A DNA stretch of 46,762 nt from an uncultured Eubacteriales bacterium (lineage in GTDB: Bacteria > Bacillota > Clostridia > Christensenellales > Aristaeellaceae): contig CACYGB010000017.1 in NCBI GenBank assembly GCA_902773895.1, positions 1 through 46,762 on the forward strand, written 5' to 3'. This document shows positions 3,484 through 44,802 of the stretch, one piece after another. Position numbers and translations under genes: made by a program. Under the pieces are notes generated by a model. The model was not told the origin of the DNA and did not search any database. It saw only the letters and a program-made list of their open reading frames with translations. How positions within the stretch are numbered: the stretch's first letter is position 1; each line of letters opens with the position of its first letter.

Positions 3484-6400
3484 ATGGCGTTCGCGCATCT
3501 GCATCTGCACACGGAATACAGCCTGCTGGACGGCGCGTGCCGGATCAAGCATCTGGTAAAGCGCGTCAAAGAATTGGGCATGGACGCCTGCGCCATCACC
3601 GACCACGGGGTGCTGTACGGCGCGGTGGAATTCTACATGGCCTGCCAGGCGGAAGGCATTCACCCGGTGATCGGATGCGAAGCCTATGTGTGCCCCGACA
3701 TGGAGGACAAGCGCTCCCTGTCCCGGGAATACAGCCACCTGATCCTGCTGTGTGAAAACGAAACGGGTTACCGGAACCTGATGTACCTGGTCAGCGAAGC
3801 CTACACCCGGGGGTTTTACTACCGTCCCCGGATGGATTACCGCCTGATCCGCGCCCATCACGAAGGGATCATCGCCCTGTCCGCCTGCATTTCCGGCGAT
3901 CTGCCCAAAATGCTGCTGGACGAGCGCTACGGCGACGCGGAAAAATACGTGCGCGACATGGCGGAGCTGTTCGGCCCGGATCACTACTACATCGAGCTGA
4001 TGGACCATGGCCTGATTGAGGAAAAAACGGTGCTGCCCCGGCTGATTGACATGAGCCGGAAAACCGGGGTGCCGCTGGTGGCGACCAACGACTGCCACTA
4101 CCTGCGCCGGGAGGATGCCGACGCCCAGGAGGTGCTGATGTGCATCCAGATGGGCAAAACCCTGGAGGACGACCAGCGCATGCGGCAGCACACCCAGGAG
4201 CTGTACGTGAAAAGCGAAGCGGAAATGCGCGCCCTGTTCCCCGATCTGGACGACGCCATCCAGCGCACCAACGAAATTGCCCATCGCTGCCAGGTGGATT
4301 TTGACTTCCACACGGTGCATCTGCCCCGGTACGACGTGCCGGCGGGCGAAACCGCCGAAAGTATGCTGCGCAGGCTGTGCGAGGAGGGCTTTTCCGTCCG
4401 CTACGCCCCCGACGATCAGGCGGCCCGGCAGCGGCTGGAATACGAATTGGGCGTCATCACCCAGATGGGCTATGTGGATTACTTCCTCATCGTGTGGGAT
4501 TTTATCAAGTACGCCAAGGATCACGGCATCATGGTGGGCCCGGGCCGCGGCAGCGGCGCCGGCAGCATCGTGGCCTACTGCCTGAATATCACCATGCTGG
4601 ATCCCCTGAAATATCAATTGCTCTTTGAGCGCTTCCTGAATCCGGAGCGGGTGTCGATGCCCGATATCGACGTGGATTTCTGCTACGAGCGCCGCCAGGA
4701 AGTGATCGACTACGTGGCCCGGAAATACGGCCACGACCACGTATGCCAGATCATCACCTTCGGCACCATGGCCGCCCGGGGCGTGATCCGGGACGTGGGC
4801 CGGGTGCTGGGCTATTCCTATGCCGACGTGGACCAGGTGGCCAAGGCGGTGCCCATGGCGCTGGATATGACGCTGGACAAGGCCATGAGCCAGAGCAAGG
4901 ACCTGAAAGACATGTACGATAACGACCCCCGGGTAAAGCGCCTGATCGACACGGCGATGACCCTGGAGGGCATGCCGCGCCACGCCTCCACCCACGCCGC
5001 CGGCGTGCTGATCACCCGGGAGCCCGCCACCTGCTATGTGCCCTTGCAGAAAAACGACGAAGTGATCACCACCCAGTACCCCATGGGCATCATCGAAAAG
5101 CTGGGGCTGCTGAAAATGGACTTCCTGGGCCTGCGCACGCTGACCGTGATCCGGGACACGCTGGACATGATCGCCAAGCGGGGCGTTCAGCTGAAGCCCG
5201 AGGAAATCCCCATGGACGATCCCGGCGTGTTCGACATGATCTGCGCCGGGGACACCGACGGGGTGTTCCAGCTGGAAGGCGGCGGCATGCGCACCTTTTT
5301 GACCAACATGCGCCCCCGCACGTTTGAAGACATCATCGCCGCCATTTCCCTGTACCGTCCGGGGCCCATGGAATCCATTCCCCGCTACATCCGGGGCAAG
5401 CAGCACCCGGAAACAGTGCAGTACAAAACGCCGCTGCTGGCCCCCATTCTGGACGTCACCTACGGCTGCATGGTGTACCAGGAGCAGGTGATGCAGATCG
5501 TGCGGGACCTGGCCGGCTACTCCTACGGCCGCAGCGACCTGGTGCGCCGGGCCATGGCCAAAAAGAAAAAAGACGTGATGGCCAAAGAACGGCAGAACTT
5601 TGTGTACGGCAACGCCGAGGAACACATTCCCGGCGCCGTGTCGAAGGGCGTCAGCGCCCCGGTGGCCGAATCCATCTTTGACGAAATGACCGCCTTCGCC
5701 TCCTACGCCTTCAACAAGCCCCACGCCGCCTGCTACGCCGTGGTGGCCCTGCAGACGGGCTACCTGAAATACCACTATCCCGCCGAATTCATGGCGGCGC
5801 TGATGAATTCCGTCACCGGCAACAGCGCCAAGATCTCCACCTACATTTACTATTGCCGCCAGAAGGGCATCCCCATCCTGCCGCCCCGGATCAATTCCTC
5901 CTTCTGGGCGTTTACGGTGGATGAAATGCCGGACGGAAAACGCGGCATCCGTTTTGGCATGGGCGGCGTGAAAAACGTGGGCGAAAAGGCGGTGGAAGCC
6001 ATCGTGCGGGACCGCTTCAACCACGGCCCGTACCGGGACATTTTCGATTTTTGCCGCCGTGTCAGCGGGGAGGATGTGAACAAGCGCGCCATCGAAAGCC
6101 TGATCAAGGCCGGCTGCTTCGACGGCCTGGGCGCCCACCGGCAGCAATGCATCGCGGTGTTTGAAAGCGCCGTGGATTCCCAGATGAACCAGCGCAAACA
6201 GATCGTCAGCGGCCAGGTTTCCCTGTTTGATTTCGGCCAGCCCGCCGAAGCCATGCGCACAGAGGAAACCTATCCGCCGCTGCCGGAATACCCCCTGAAG
6301 GAGCTGCTGGCCCAGGAAAAGGAAATGACCGGGGTCTACTGCTCCGCTCATCCCCTGGATGAATATGCCCGGGAGCTGGAAAAGCTGCCCGTGAACACCG

Positions 6401-34163: not shown

Positions 34164-34649
34164 TCAGCCGTTCCCGGCATTTTTCGCATGCTGCTGCGCC
34201 ACGGTGAGCAGCATACACTTGAGGATTTTGGCGCGCATGGCGTCCTTCACCGCCTCCGGGAGCGGCCCGGCCAGCGCCTGGGGGGAAACGGCCGCGGCCA
34301 TCAATTGCGCTTCGGACAGCGTGACCAGCTTCCTTTCCGCCAGCTGGGCGCACAGCACCTGCGCAGACTGGGCGTCCAAACTGTCGCCGATGCGCTCGTG
34401 CAGCAAATAGGTCAGATGATCCACCGAGGATTGCTGCACCCGCACGATGCGGATGTAGCCGCCGCCGCCCCGCTGAGACGAGGTCACGTACCCGTGGTCC
34501 GGCGTAAAGCGGGTCGCCAGCACATAATTGATCTGGGACGGAGCGCAGTGAAAATACTCCGCCAGCTCGTTCCGCTTCAGCTCCACTTCCGGCTGATCCT
34601 CCTGGATCATGGCCTTGATGAAGCTCTCGATCGTATCGCTCAATCGCAT
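34164..34649 (-). CDS. ctsR: CtsR, heat-shock repressor
   Basis: 161 residues. The N-terminal winged helix reads LSDTIESFIKAMIQ, VELKRNELAEYFHCAPSQIN and YVLATRFTPDHGYVTSSQRG, followed by the Gly-rich wing GGGGYIRIVRV that contacts DNA. The C-terminal helical dimer domain ends LKCMLLTVAQQH. CtsR represses its own operon and clp genes and is released on heat shock. A CtsR-type operator sits about 20 nt upstream, between the -10 and the start. GGGAGGGA precedes ATG 34649. Confidence 0.94.
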   Translation of the reverse strand: MRLSDTIESFIKAMIQEDQPEVELKRNELAEYFHCAPSQINYVLATRFTPDHGYVTSSQRGGGGYIRIVRVQQSSVDHLTYLLHERIGDSLDAQSAQVLCAQLAERKLVTLSEAQLMAAAVSPQALAGPLPEAVKDAMRAKILKCMLLTVAQQHAKNAGNG

Positions 34650-34668
34650 GTCTGATCCCTCCCGGGAA

Positions 34669-34685
34669 ATTGTCTTTCTTTGACC
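34669..34685 (-). promoter_or_regulatory. CtsR operator
   Basis: On the minus strand GGTCAAA-GAA-AGACAAT. This matches the CtsR heptad direct repeat (RGTCAAA-NAN-RGTCAAA) with two changes in the second half. It lies just downstream of the -10, where a bound repressor would block the ctsR promoter. Confidence 0.75.
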
Positions 34686-34691
34686 ATTATG

Positions 34692-34720
34692 ATTATATCA
34701 TCTTTTTCCCTGCTGCGCAA
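34692..34720 (-). promoter_or_regulatory. ctsR operon promoter
   Basis: On the minus strand TTGCGC-N17-TATAAT with TGa before the -10 (extended -10). The weak -35 fits a repressed stress operon. The DNA from 34721 to 34850 shows nothing else recognisable. Confidence 0.65.
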
Positions 34721-34852
34721 GTGCCAATTTTCCCTGTTTTCCGCTTCCCTTTTAGGCCGTTCCGGTTGATCAGGTCCACGCCCGTCTGCACCGTTTCCCG
34801 GCAATCATCCCGGTGAATTGCGCTTAAGAATTCATATTTTTATTTTATCCCC

Positions 34853-34881
34853 TTGTATTCTCTCCGTGCATCGCATATACT
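34853..34881 (+). promoter_or_regulatory. Promoter of small RNA unit 1
   Basis: TTGTAT-N17-TATACT, with expected start near 34888, exactly where the 5' arm of the RNA closing stem begins. Confidence 0.65.
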
Positions 34882-34887
34882 GGACGT

Positions 34888-34958
34888 AAGCAGCAGGGCT
34901 CGCCTGGTTTAAACTGGGATCCATCCCAGCACCTGGCTATGATGGGACTGCTGCTTTT
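34888..34958 (+). ncRNA. Candidate small RNA 1 of a tandem array
   Basis: About 71 nt. The first nine bases (AAGCAGCAG, 34888-34896) pair perfectly with CTGCTGCTT (34948-34956), followed by a short T-run, so the 5' and 3' ends close on each other. Inside is a perfect 7-bp pair CTGGGAT/ATCCCAG (34914-34920 with 34923-34929), extendable by neighbouring bases. There is no ribosome site or fitting reading frame. The T-run runs into the -35 box of unit 2. I do not recognise a known RNA family. Confidence 0.6.
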
Positions 34959-34959
34959 A

Positions 34960-34988
34960 TTGACGCCGCCAGCGTCTTCTGTTATAAT
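34960..34988 (+). promoter_or_regulatory. Promoter of small RNA unit 2
   Basis: TTGACG-N17-TATAAT with TGt before the -10 (extended -10). It starts 2 nt after the unit 1 RNA. Confidence 0.7.
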
Positions 34989-34994
34989 TATATG

Positions 34995-35075
34995 GAAGAG
35001 GCAAGCGCCACCGGTCGTCGCTTTTGCGGTAGAGAGCCTTTGAGCTCGTCCGGTGCTCCGGTCTCTTCATTTTTT
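34995..35075 (+). ncRNA. Candidate small RNA 2 of a tandem array
   Basis: About 81 nt. Closing stem GAAGAG (34995-35000) with CTCTTC (35063-35068), followed by six T. A second stem CACCGG (35009-35014) pairs with CCGGTG (35050-35055). Two inner hairpins are CGC-TTTT-GCG (35019-35028) and GAGC/GCTC (35034-35047). This is a branched fold with a terminator-like end. A 31-codon open frame from 34992 begins before the expected RNA start and has no ribosome site. Confidence 0.6.
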
Positions 35076-35093
35076 CATTTCGAATGAAGGTTA

Positions 35094-35122
35094 TTGACGC
35101 CTACTTCGGCTCGTGATACACT
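35094..35122 (+). promoter_or_regulatory. Promoter of small RNA unit 3
   Basis: TTGACG-N17-TACACT with TGa before the -10. The -35 is identical to that of unit 2. Confidence 0.65.
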
Positions 35123-35128
35123 GCCATG

Positions 35129-35199
35129 GAGGATGTTCTCCGTCTGATGTTGCGCCATCGCGCAGTCAGTCAGTAGCTGCGGAACGGCATCCTCTTTTT
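35129..35199 (+). ncRNA. Candidate small RNA 3 of a tandem array
   Basis: About 71 nt. Closing stem GAGGATG (35129-35135) with CATCCTC (35188-35194), followed by five T. It is extended inside by GTTC/GAAC pairing (35135-35138 with 35182-35185). An inner hairpin TGCGC-CATC-GCGCA lies at 35151-35164. The primary sequence differs from units 1 and 2, but the plan (promoter, about 7 nt, end-to-end stem, T-run) is the same. The 35200-35350 gap that follows holds only small GC palindromes. Confidence 0.6.
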
Positions 35200-35352
35200 C
35201 TGTGGTGAAGCGTCGTTCCCCCGGCTGATTCACGCAAATTGAGCTTCCTTTCAAAGCTTCCACCGCCGGCGGCAGGTTTAATATGCGTCGCCCGCACCGG
35301 CGCTATGCCGAAGCGGGAAACGTAAAATTTCGCATTTCCGGCGGCGGGATCG

Positions 35353-35381
35353 TTGCGCGGCCTGGCCCGATATGGTACAAT
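35353..35381 (+). promoter_or_regulatory. Promoter of the GH3 gene
   Basis: TTGCGC-N17-TACAAT with TGg before the -10, 29 nt before the TTG start. Confidence 0.65.
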
Positions 35382-35410
35382 GAACGGGACCATCAAAGGA
35401 GGAAACGCCG

Positions 35411-36556
35411 TTGCGCCGATTGATTGCTTTTTTTCTGACGCTGCTGATGATTTTTCCCGCTGCCGCGGAAGAATGGATCGTGGAAGAAACGGACGAGGAA
35501 GCCCTGCCGGACCGCCGGGCCCAGGCCGGGGTGCTGATCCGGGATATGACGCTGGAAGAAAAGGTGTGGCAGCTGCTGCTGGTTGCCCCCGAAGCGCTGA
35601 CCGGGGAAAAATATACCACCAAACTGGGCAAAACCAACGTATTCACCGGCAAGCCCGCCGGCGGCATCGTGATTTACGGGCAGAACATCGTATCCGAAGC
35701 CCAATTGAAAAAACTGACCGCCCAGCTGCAGTCCCAGATCAAGGCAGCCGGCGGCTATCCCCTGTTCCTGGCGGTGCACGAGGAAGGCGGCGCCTATTCC
35801 CGGGTAGCCAGCAAGCTGGGCTATCCGCAGGTGCAGAGCGCGCCGGAAGTCGGCTTCACCCGCATGTCGGTCAACGCCCGCACAGCAGGGGCGCAGATCG
35901 GCGCCTATTTGACGCCCTTTGGCATCAACCTGGATTTCGCGCCGGTGGGCGACGTGCAGTGCGCCGAGGACGGCTGGATCAACGGCCGGCTTTACGGCAG
36001 CGATCCCCAGCTGGTGTCCCAGATGGCGTTCCAGATGGCCGAGGGCCTGCGCAGCCAGGGCGTCATCCCCTGCTTTTCCCATTTCCCCGGCCAGGCCAGC
36101 ATCAACGGCAACTTGAATAACCGCGAAGTGGTGAACACCCGCACCCTGGACGACATGCGCGCCGGGGACTGGGCCACGTTCCGCCTGGCGGCCTCCAGCT
36201 TCGCGGAAATGATCATGGTGTCCCACGGCACCGCCAAGGCGGCCGGCGACGGCCTGCCTGCCAGCCTGTCCCCCACGGTGATCGGCACGTGGCTTCGCAA
36301 GGAGCTGGGCTATACGGGCGTGGTGATCACCGATTCCCTGCGCATGGGCGCCATCACCAGCCGCTTCAAATCCGGCAAGGCCGCCGTGATGGCCCTGCAG
36401 GCCGGGGCCGATTTGCTGCTGCTGCCCAGCGACGCCGACGCTGCCGTGGCCGCCATCCTGAAGGCCGTGGAGAGCGGCGAATTGACGGAAGCGCGCATCG
36501 ACCAGAGCGTCACCCGGGTGCTGGCCCTGAAAATCGAAAAGGGCATTATCCGATAA
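35411..36556 (+). CDS. Secreted glycoside hydrolase family 3-like protein
   Basis: 381 residues, starting with TTG at 35411; AAAGGAGG lies 8 nt upstream. A signal peptide (LIAFFLTLLMIFPAAA, then EEW) exports it. The body is a GH3 TIM barrel of the NagZ/beta-N-acetylhexosaminidase type: VWQLLLVAPEALTGEK, GGIVIYGQNI, LFLAVHEEGGAYSRV, INLDFAPVGDV and the nucleophile region VVITDSLRMGAIT. The NagZ motif KHFPGHG...D-S/T-H is altered to SHFPGQASINGNLN, losing the Lys, the second His and the acid/base loop His. It may act on peptidoglycan sugars in a changed way or only bind them. It is alone between the small-RNA array and a terminator. Confidence 0.87.
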   Translation: MRRLIAFFLTLLMIFPAAAEEWIVEETDEEALPDRRAQAGVLIRDMTLEEKVWQLLLVAPEALTGEKYTTKLGKTNVFTGKPAGGIVIYGQNIVSEAQLKKLTAQLQSQIKAAGGYPLFLAVHEEGGAYSRVASKLGYPQVQSAPEVGFTRMSVNARTAGAQIGAYLTPFGINLDFAPVGDVQCAEDGWINGRLYGSDPQLVSQMAFQMAEGLRSQGVIPCFSHFPGQASINGNLNNREVVNTRTLDDMRAGDWATFRLAASSFAEMIMVSHGTAKAAGDGLPASLSPTVIGTWLRKELGYTGVVITDSLRMGAITSRFKSGKAAVMALQAGADLLLLPSDADAAVAAILKAVESGELTEARIDQSVTRVLALKIEKGIIR

Positions 36557-44645: not shown

Positions 44646-44722
<77 letters not shown>

Positions 44723-44725
44723 TTT

Positions 44726-44802
44726 GGCTCCGTAGCTCAGTTGGCTAGAGCATTCGGTTCATACCCGGAGTGTCAGTGGTTCGAATCCACTCGGAGCCAC
44801 CA
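44726..44802 (+). tRNA. tRNA-Met (CAT), elongator type
   Basis: 77 nt with acceptor stem GGCTCCG/CGGAGCC fully paired, D arm GCTCAGTTGGCTAGAGC, anticodon loop TTCATAC and encoded CCA. The elongator Met type is most likely. A tRNA-Ile that reads ATA after lysidine modification has the same anticodon and cannot be fully excluded. It is 3 nt after the initiator tRNA and shares its promoter. Confidence 0.9.

Follow-up and report, generated by a model that had tools for sequence, protein, structure and literature searches.

Three tandem RNA units in a clostridial genome as putative orphan copies of RNAs encoded antisense to phage protein modules

The stretch of DNA described here (the window, 46,762 nt in full) comes from an uncultured Eubacteriales bacterium and carries three tandem RNA units at 34853-35199, between ctsR and a GH3 gene, each of which combines a sigma-A-type promoter, an end-to-end stem and a T-run, as seen by inspection of the sequence. 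These units are probably (with a likelihood of roughly 0.6) orphan copies of a family of RNAs encoded antisense to modules of phage proteins, the RNAs being putative module-specific antitoxins. Comparison of sequences establishes the recurrent arrangement of this family, its excess over chance, the conserved structure of its members, class-specific features, and the occurrence of tandem arrays and orphans; from there we infer an antitoxin role, toxicity of the modules, RNA-protein binding and protection.

The array between ctsR and the GH3 gene

The features of the locus are as follows.

34708-35303, no strand: segment lacking in G027, the closest syntenic relative, and holding all three units (flanking matches)
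34853-34881, plus strand: unit 1 promoter, TTGTAT-17 nt-TATACT (scanner score 8); -35 TTGTAT at 34853-34858, -10 TATACT at 34876-34881
34888-34956, plus strand: unit 1 RNA body, 69 nt (fold z -2.8); closing stem of 9 bp, AAGCAGCAG/CTGCTGCTT, with a 3'-side bulge of 6 nt and an inner hairpin
34955-34961, plus strand: unit 1 T-run, running on into the unit 2 -35 (sequence)
34960-34988, plus strand: unit 2 promoter, TTGACG-17 nt-TATAAT, extended -10 (scanner score 12, promoter scan); -35 TTGACG at 34960-34965, -10 TATAAT at 34983-34988 with TG ahead
34995-35068, plus strand: unit 2 RNA body, 74 nt, closing stem of 8 bp (fold z -2.7)
35069-35075, plus strand: unit 2 T-run (sequence)
35094-35122, plus strand: unit 3 promoter, TTGACG-17 nt-TACACT, extended -10 (promoter scan; conserved with the promoter of the antisense RNA on contig C103); -35 TTGACG at 35094-35099, -10 TACACT at 35117-35122 with TG ahead
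35128-35195, plus strand: unit 3 RNA body, 68 nt, closing stem of 9 bp (fold z -4.3)
35196-35199, plus strand: unit 3 T-run (sequence)

The initial annotation had described a separate promoter for each unit with a 17-nt spacer, two of them with an extended -10, and a T-run of unit 1 reaching into the -35 box of unit 2; the sequence bears out both descriptions (17 nt in units 1, 2, and 3; 34955-34961 vs. 34960-34965), the -35 of unit 1 being weak (3/6 consensus positions). All three units pass a scanner for the common design (spacer of 16–18 nt, start a few nt behind the promoter, stem of at least 6 bp, T-run), and their starts are 107 and 133 nt apart. Closing stems of 9, 6, and 7 bp had been proposed, of which the 9 bp of unit 1 stands while the scanner gives 8 and 9 bp for units 2 and 3.

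At looser scanner settings (promoter score at least 8, stem at least 6, E at most -18) the window yields 6 matches, all three units among them. Dinucleotide shuffles of the window (n = 300) gave a mean of 2.2 matches, with at least 6 in 7/300, and contained 0 same-strand clusters of three and 2 clusters of two. Stricter settings picked after the units were known (TTG in the -35, stem at least 8, E at most -25, length at most 95) return exactly units 1–3 in the window and 0 matches in a 400-kb sample from the same genome. A generic promoter scan of the window recovers units 2 and 3 only (2 found vs. 0.8 expected), and a terminator scan detects the end of none of the units because it accepts loops of 3–8 only.

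An alignment of the region between ctsR and the GH3 gene across relatives had been suggested, and the array proved to be missing in 8/8 syntenic relatives. The comparison covers 22 rows representing 21 genomes (L036 duplicates L010). The stretch at 34708-35303 measures 596 nt here vs. 156 nt in G027, with matches at 34642-34707 and 35304-35407 on its flanks, and the start-to-start gap between ctsR and the GH3 gene is 762 nt here vs. 130–319 nt in the 8 relatives with the same neighbors, none of which holds a scanner match of comparable quality. Scanner matches in the relatives' rows fall within the GH3 coding sequence (L021) or at the upstream end of ctsR with poor promoters (L012, L030); L030 also has a 109-nt match inside a 288-aa frame that passes the filter only without the length limit. 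A host regulator tied to ctsR is thus unsupported, the array being absent in the 8 relatives that share its flanks. No direct repeats or module fragments are seen around the array (sequence, ORF list, repeat scan of 34640-35430), the scan finding no repeats within that interval, and the ORF list shows no module opposite the units. Elsewhere in the window, at 44646-44802, there are two tandem tRNA genes, both with a CAT anticodon.

The earlier statement that no known RNA class is recognizable in the units holds, as Rfam searches of the window and of 10 member loci return tRNAs only, and a low-threshold Rfam scan of 34640-35420 gives only chance-level matches, all outside the units.

RNAs antisense to LPD3-like and PBECR3 modules

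A BLAST search of the window's own genome gives one match of note, between 35089-35175, from unit 3 with its promoter, and C103:602-691 on the reverse strand (73% identity, E 1.5e-6). The view that the sequences are unlike each other applies among the three units; on this other contig, unit 3 has a clear relative. The match lies antisense within a 308-aa open frame in which Pfam detects LPD3 only weakly, below the cut-off (E 0.017), and the C103 RNA sits behind the LPD3-like module, antisense to it, with a TTGACA-17-TACAAT promoter and a fold resembling that of unit 3 (z -5.7). Among the 27 pairs of unit 3, 18 are the same in C103, 4 differ on one side and still pair, 4 are kept through changes on both sides and 1 is broken. 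Conservation between the two RNAs covers the paired arms and leaves out the apical loop. Compensatory changes in the closing stems, whose absence the initial annotation named as a refutation, are present between unit 3 and C103 (the 4 both-side pairs) and also in the LPD3-like RNA family. The local alignment score of unit 3 is 62, against a null 95th percentile of 32–33. A covariance model (R1) built from 12 other LPD3-like RNAs gives unit 3 only 2.8 bits, which is no detection; a second model (R2), with C103 among its members, scores it at 14.4 bits (E 0.014 in 781 bases), and unit 3 is absent from the matches listed in the genome-wide R2 search, where 150 of 281–669 candidates per genome were scored. 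By BLAST the link of unit 3 to the module-antisense RNA family is considered firm; by model R2 it is weak.

Units 1 and 2 belong to the family by design and tandem position only, since they have no significant sequence relative among 84 RNAs (alignment scores vs. shuffles); in BLAST searches of 200 related genomes their best match outside their own genome has E 1e-3. A PBECR3-type assignment of unit 2 was dropped because its alignments to sets of 64 and 84 RNAs score no higher than those of shuffles. In 150 family genomes the best BLAST match outside the own genome reaches E 9e-4 over 28 nt for unit 3, whose matches at E 0.1 in 27/150 genomes are regarded as chance, and E 0.015 for the C103 RNA. 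The window array has no match in phages and plasmids at E 1, and its exact core pattern does not occur in IMG/VR. At L002:928-1140, on C103, the end of the LPD3-like gene lies beside two tRNA genes followed by a gene for a metallo-beta-lactamase-type RNase (RNase J-like by eye), as if an element had been inserted at the tRNAs.

LPD3 is a domain of the "polyvalent" proteins of phages and conjugative elements, listed without a known function where the name was introduced (PMC5512222). Six further modules turn up when the 150 family genomes are searched with the C103 protein; by eye, each has a long end-to-end stem on the opposite strand directly behind it, and most of these six show a promoter-like site. 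The collection was extended through IMG/VR (18 loci), species genomes (9 loci), PBECR3 searches and a class-wide search, and 47 modules were retained from 56 profile matches after removal of 9 (duplicates, matches not reaching the C-end of the module, or those with less than 120 nt downstream). With fixed scanner thresholds, 35/47 modules are accompanied by an antisense RNA that ends, at its 3' side, no more than 30 nt from the end of the module (LPD3-like 27/37, PBECR3 8/10); as all modules were found by protein except C103, reached through unit 3, the count without C103 is 34/46. Sense-direction RNAs at module ends number 0/47. Control windows in the same loci, which omit 400 nt around known modules and keep other modules in, contain an antisense RNA in 37/2208 cases and a sense RNA in 11, and shuffling of the downstream DNA leaves 0–4 of 47 (mean 1.1, 20 replicates). 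At the ends of ART-PolyVal domains, a non-RNase control, an antisense RNA is present in 0/4 loci. The 35 RNAs are 48–80 nt long, with a 17-nt spacer in 32/35 and TTGACA as -35 in 14. In total, 64 antisense RNAs of shared design were collected from 42 loci, many of them unalignable, and the proposal of a design common without sequence identity, made for the three units, turns out to describe the signature of a widespread RNA family.

Below the scanner thresholds are 12/47 modules. In two of these (L122 and L126), where the module forms the end of the protein, the RNA lies 19–20 nt further on, past the stop; L080, L083, L088, L098, L134, and L135 give no candidate RNA even with a relaxed scan, although L083, L088, and L098 nonetheless fold and align well with other RNAs, and the model to which some of these loci contribute pairs well. 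L134, from a Fournierella massiliensis strain, has an RNA with a strong promoter at 4327-4405. In proteins with several modules, every module comes with its own RNA: the three RNAs of L084 follow two PBECR3 modules and an LPD3-like one, and L155 likewise has a separate RNA for each. In the loci L155–L165, outside the 47 (L165 repeats the place of L162, and L158 a module of L147), an RNA lies within 66 nt of a module end in 8/11 loci, the exceptions being L159, L161, and L164. Solo PBECR-like proteins of ~142–149 aa (L124, L125, L161) occur without such an antisense RNA and possibly represent a different, chromosomal use of the fold. Linker peptides such as DSIPQ, NSI, and NDIV behind modules (for example in L084, L082, and L002) correspond to the antisense -10 box read on the other strand, and such conserved-looking peptides may be usable as marks of RNA-bearing modules in protein alignments.

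The modules are soluble-type domains of 110–160 aa with a mixed helix-strand model, within proteins of up to 2400 aa or more. Pfam assigns them to LPD3, PBECR3, or MuF_C only, and 14 LPD3-like modules have no match in NCBIfam or PADLOC at E 0.01. Foldseek searches with the module model return nothing at E 0.001, the top rows being NTF2-like, and the fold match of the LPD3-like module model to solved BECR RNases is weak. Among annotated phages, LPD3-like queries find none, and PBECR3 queries find none in one search and one record in another; scans of IMG/VR with PBECR3 alignments recover 2 and 1 loci, both including the contig of L084 itself.

Structure of the RNAs, tandem arrays and orphans

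An alignment (A8) of 12 LPD3-like RNAs, hand-picked as alignable, has 24 consensus pairs with double-sided changes in 17/24; its paired cells amount to 91.7% vs. 74.9% in shuffles, with neither the pairing nor the covariation reached in any of the shuffles (0/500), and slid structures give 40–50% pairing. Model R1 finds the C103 RNA, on which it was not trained, with E 1.7e-9, and among 8 untrained LPD3-like loci it detects C103, L077, L075, and L078 and misses L076, L079, L080, and L099.

The hairpin CGYYUYGGRCG occurs in 11/64 RNAs, many PBECR3 RNAs among them, and in 0/29 labeled LPD3-like; the labels behind this count come from a crude text pattern, under which L135, called PBECR3-like, is MuF_C by Pfam. 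Of five hairpin RNAs labeled "other," four lie at PBECR3 matches or fragments (L144, L160, L162, L163) and L156:1209 does not, while the PBECR3 modules of L123 and the first of L084 lack the hairpin. Two coding phases of the motif occur, in nine and two cases, and it therefore encodes different amino acids. The same hairpin RNA is also seen past the stop codon where a PBECR3 module ends the protein (L122:~1888-1960; L126:1898-1963, in G077), so that the motif persists outside coding sequence. As far as can be judged from sequence, RNA class follows module class and not the peptide, since the PBECR3-type hairpin occurs in two coding phases. MuF_C RNAs at L122:959-1017, L135:2330-2395, and L132:3539-3604 (assigned by Pfam for L122 and L135, by resemblance for L132) seemingly have in common, by eye, a 7-nt loop RAUUGKA that is missing from two other MuF_C RNAs (L097, L129). 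Two alignments were set aside, a MAFFT alignment of PBECR3 RNAs (A9) as insufficiently structural and one of unit 3, C103, G026, and G320 (A11) as poor (59% mean identity).

Tandem arrays occur in other Clostridia among stop-broken frames: L186 (G514) has six RNAs within 1.03 kb, L187 (G320) five within 1.15 kb, and L188 (G257) eight in two groups of four. Five RNAs of L188 resemble RNAs of L186, in other orders. The window array has the same look as these three. In a sister species (G026) an intergenic LPD3-type RNA stands as an orphan at C37:17940-18026 (L194:1501-1587, minus strand; R2 E 3.8e-9 in a search that scored 150 of 281–669 candidates per genome), with a fold of -47.3 kcal/mol (z -7.6), between an ABC permease gene and a phage integrase remnant; no clear promoter is seen there.

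Proposed role, alternatives and related systems

The RNAs of this family usually lie on the back strand of BECR-type (suspected RNase) modules of phage polyvalent and MuF proteins, opposite their 3' end. In the proposed mechanism, the linker that follows the module holds a sigma-A-type promoter that would fire backwards and yield an RNA of ~50–90 nt whose 5' and 3' ends are predicted to pair into a long stem closing at the T-run, which in LPD3-like modules falls in the A-rich codons of the last conserved motif. The RNA most likely binds and blocks the module protein, like type III and AbiF-RCd22 antitoxins, and a lysogen would thereby survive the modules of its own phage. Solo RNAs and arrays, including that of the window, may protect against modules from other phages, in the manner of orphan immunity gene arrays.

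Some of the same observations would fit RNAs that act only in cis on the mRNA of the module, as in type I-like systems (duplex formation, RNase III cleavage, transcription interference), the solo units being by-products. Pairing with the mRNA would be perfect because the RNAs are antisense to the module gene, and the type I antitoxins of clostridial prophages, as described in the available text, likewise overlap their toxin gene convergently (PMC6563280). A single RNA would, however, silence the whole gene, yet there is one for each module (L084, L155); the stems covary and are conserved, unit 3 and C103 having kept their arms and not the apical loop; and solo units and arrays retain promoter and structure without a module opposite. 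An exclusively cis-acting role is thus unlikely. Four observations favor recognition of the module protein over mRNA pairing: proteins with several modules carry a separate RNA for every module, compensatory changes preserve the RNA structure, the type of RNA goes with the type of module, and promoter and structure persist in solo copies.

That the family is real but the window copies are dying and non-functional, left behind by the decay of a prophage or some other element, is a minority reading, though one with several observations behind it: the locus is absent from the 8 syntenic relatives, the sister-species orphan lies beside an integrase remnant without a clear promoter, arrays elsewhere are found among broken modules, and the -35 of unit 1 is weak. 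It sits poorly with the joint retention of promoter, stem, and T-run in all three units, with the 8/9 differing pairs between unit 3 and C103 that still pair (4 via both-side changes), and with the lack of visible direct repeats or module fragments around the array. Regulatory sRNAs of the host, connected with ctsR or the GH3 gene and not with phages, would account for an intergenic position, own promoters, and compact folds, but this is very improbable given the match of unit 3 to an RNA that lies antisense in a phage-type gene and the lack of the array in relatives with the same flanks. Still less probable is that unit 3 represents a fragment of a gene coding for an LPD3-like protein, and not an RNA gene: the frame opposite unit 3 is open (ORF 35075-35263) and resembles the C103 linker peptide, but the homology begins at the -35 box and spans promoter and RNA only, no module is encoded alongside or appears in the minus-strand ORF list upstream, and two further units of the same design lie in tandem. 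The reading of the units as orphan copies of module-specific antitoxins is preferred.

Type III toxin-antitoxin systems (ToxIN and its kin) consist of a tandem-repeat RNA upstream of the toxin in one operon. The likeness, a structured RNA blocking an RNase, belongs here to the working model only, and the difference lies in a single stem-closed RNA with its own promoter on the strand opposite the module 3' end. A repeat RNA upstream of a toxin was not found (no repeats within 34640-35430; RNA opposite the module 3' end), nor was a type III toxin family among the 14 LPD3-like modules (NCBIfam, PADLOC, E 0.01). In a Clostridioides difficile prophage, the ncRNA of AbiF-RCd22 is described as neutralizing its toxic protein partner through direct RNA-protein contact, both in cis and in trans (PMC12373285). 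That RNA is phage-encoded like those considered here, with protein neutralization shown there and putative here; the partner in the published account (PMC12373285) is an Abi_2/AbiD/F protein instead of LPD3-like, PBECR3, and MuF_C modules, and here the RNA is antisense to the module gene.

Type I antitoxins of clostridial prophages are reported to overlap the toxin gene in convergent orientation, as do the RNAs in 35/47 module loci but not in the window; the toxins described there are small hydrophobic peptides of ~30–60 aa (PMC6563280), whereas the modules here are ~110–160 aa, each with its own RNA, and belong to proteins that can reach 2400 aa or more. PBECR and MuF-C are predicted RNases, and the RNAs lie in the genes of the MuF toxins and polyvalent proteins that the respective papers treat; in their available text immunity proteins are expected or none are discussed (PMC5576092, PMC5512222). 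The terms antisense and RNA antitoxin are absent from the accessible portion of the 2017 MuF paper (PMC5576092), and antisense, small RNA, and noncoding from that of the polyvalent paper (PMC5512222). Orphan immunity gene arrays of polymorphic toxins, as far as the available accounts go, are similarly tandem, shuffled and toxin-less, and consist of protein genes in place of RNAs (PMC5361080, PMC9484751). No description of RNAs antisense to LPD3, PBECR, or MuF_C modules was found in a library of open PubMed Central papers, two of which contain the word PBECR, and as far as those papers go the RNA family, its back-strand placement per module and its arrays are undescribed. Under the working model they would represent a new variant of RNA antitoxin.

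PBECR domains alone are stated to occur in up to 26% of polyvalent proteins (PMC5512222). MuF toxins, for their part, are expected to depend on immunity proteins, which are difficult to recognize (PMC5576092). The broader proposal, which at present has about even odds, is that each BECR-type RNase module of phage polyvalent or MuF proteins would form one traveling cassette with a protein-neutralizing RNA antitoxin on its back strand and that phages and bacteria would gather solo RNAs in tandem arrays, of which the window would hold a chromosomal one. If so, the question of MuF and polyvalent immunity would become directly testable, a large set of RNA antitoxins would lie outside Rfam, and conserved linker peptides would be explained as promoters read backwards. 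Inherited RNA arrays would then seem to counter toxins that phages deliver, and the whole would amount to a new type of toxin immunity whose arrays would be the RNA counterpart of orphan immunity gene arrays.
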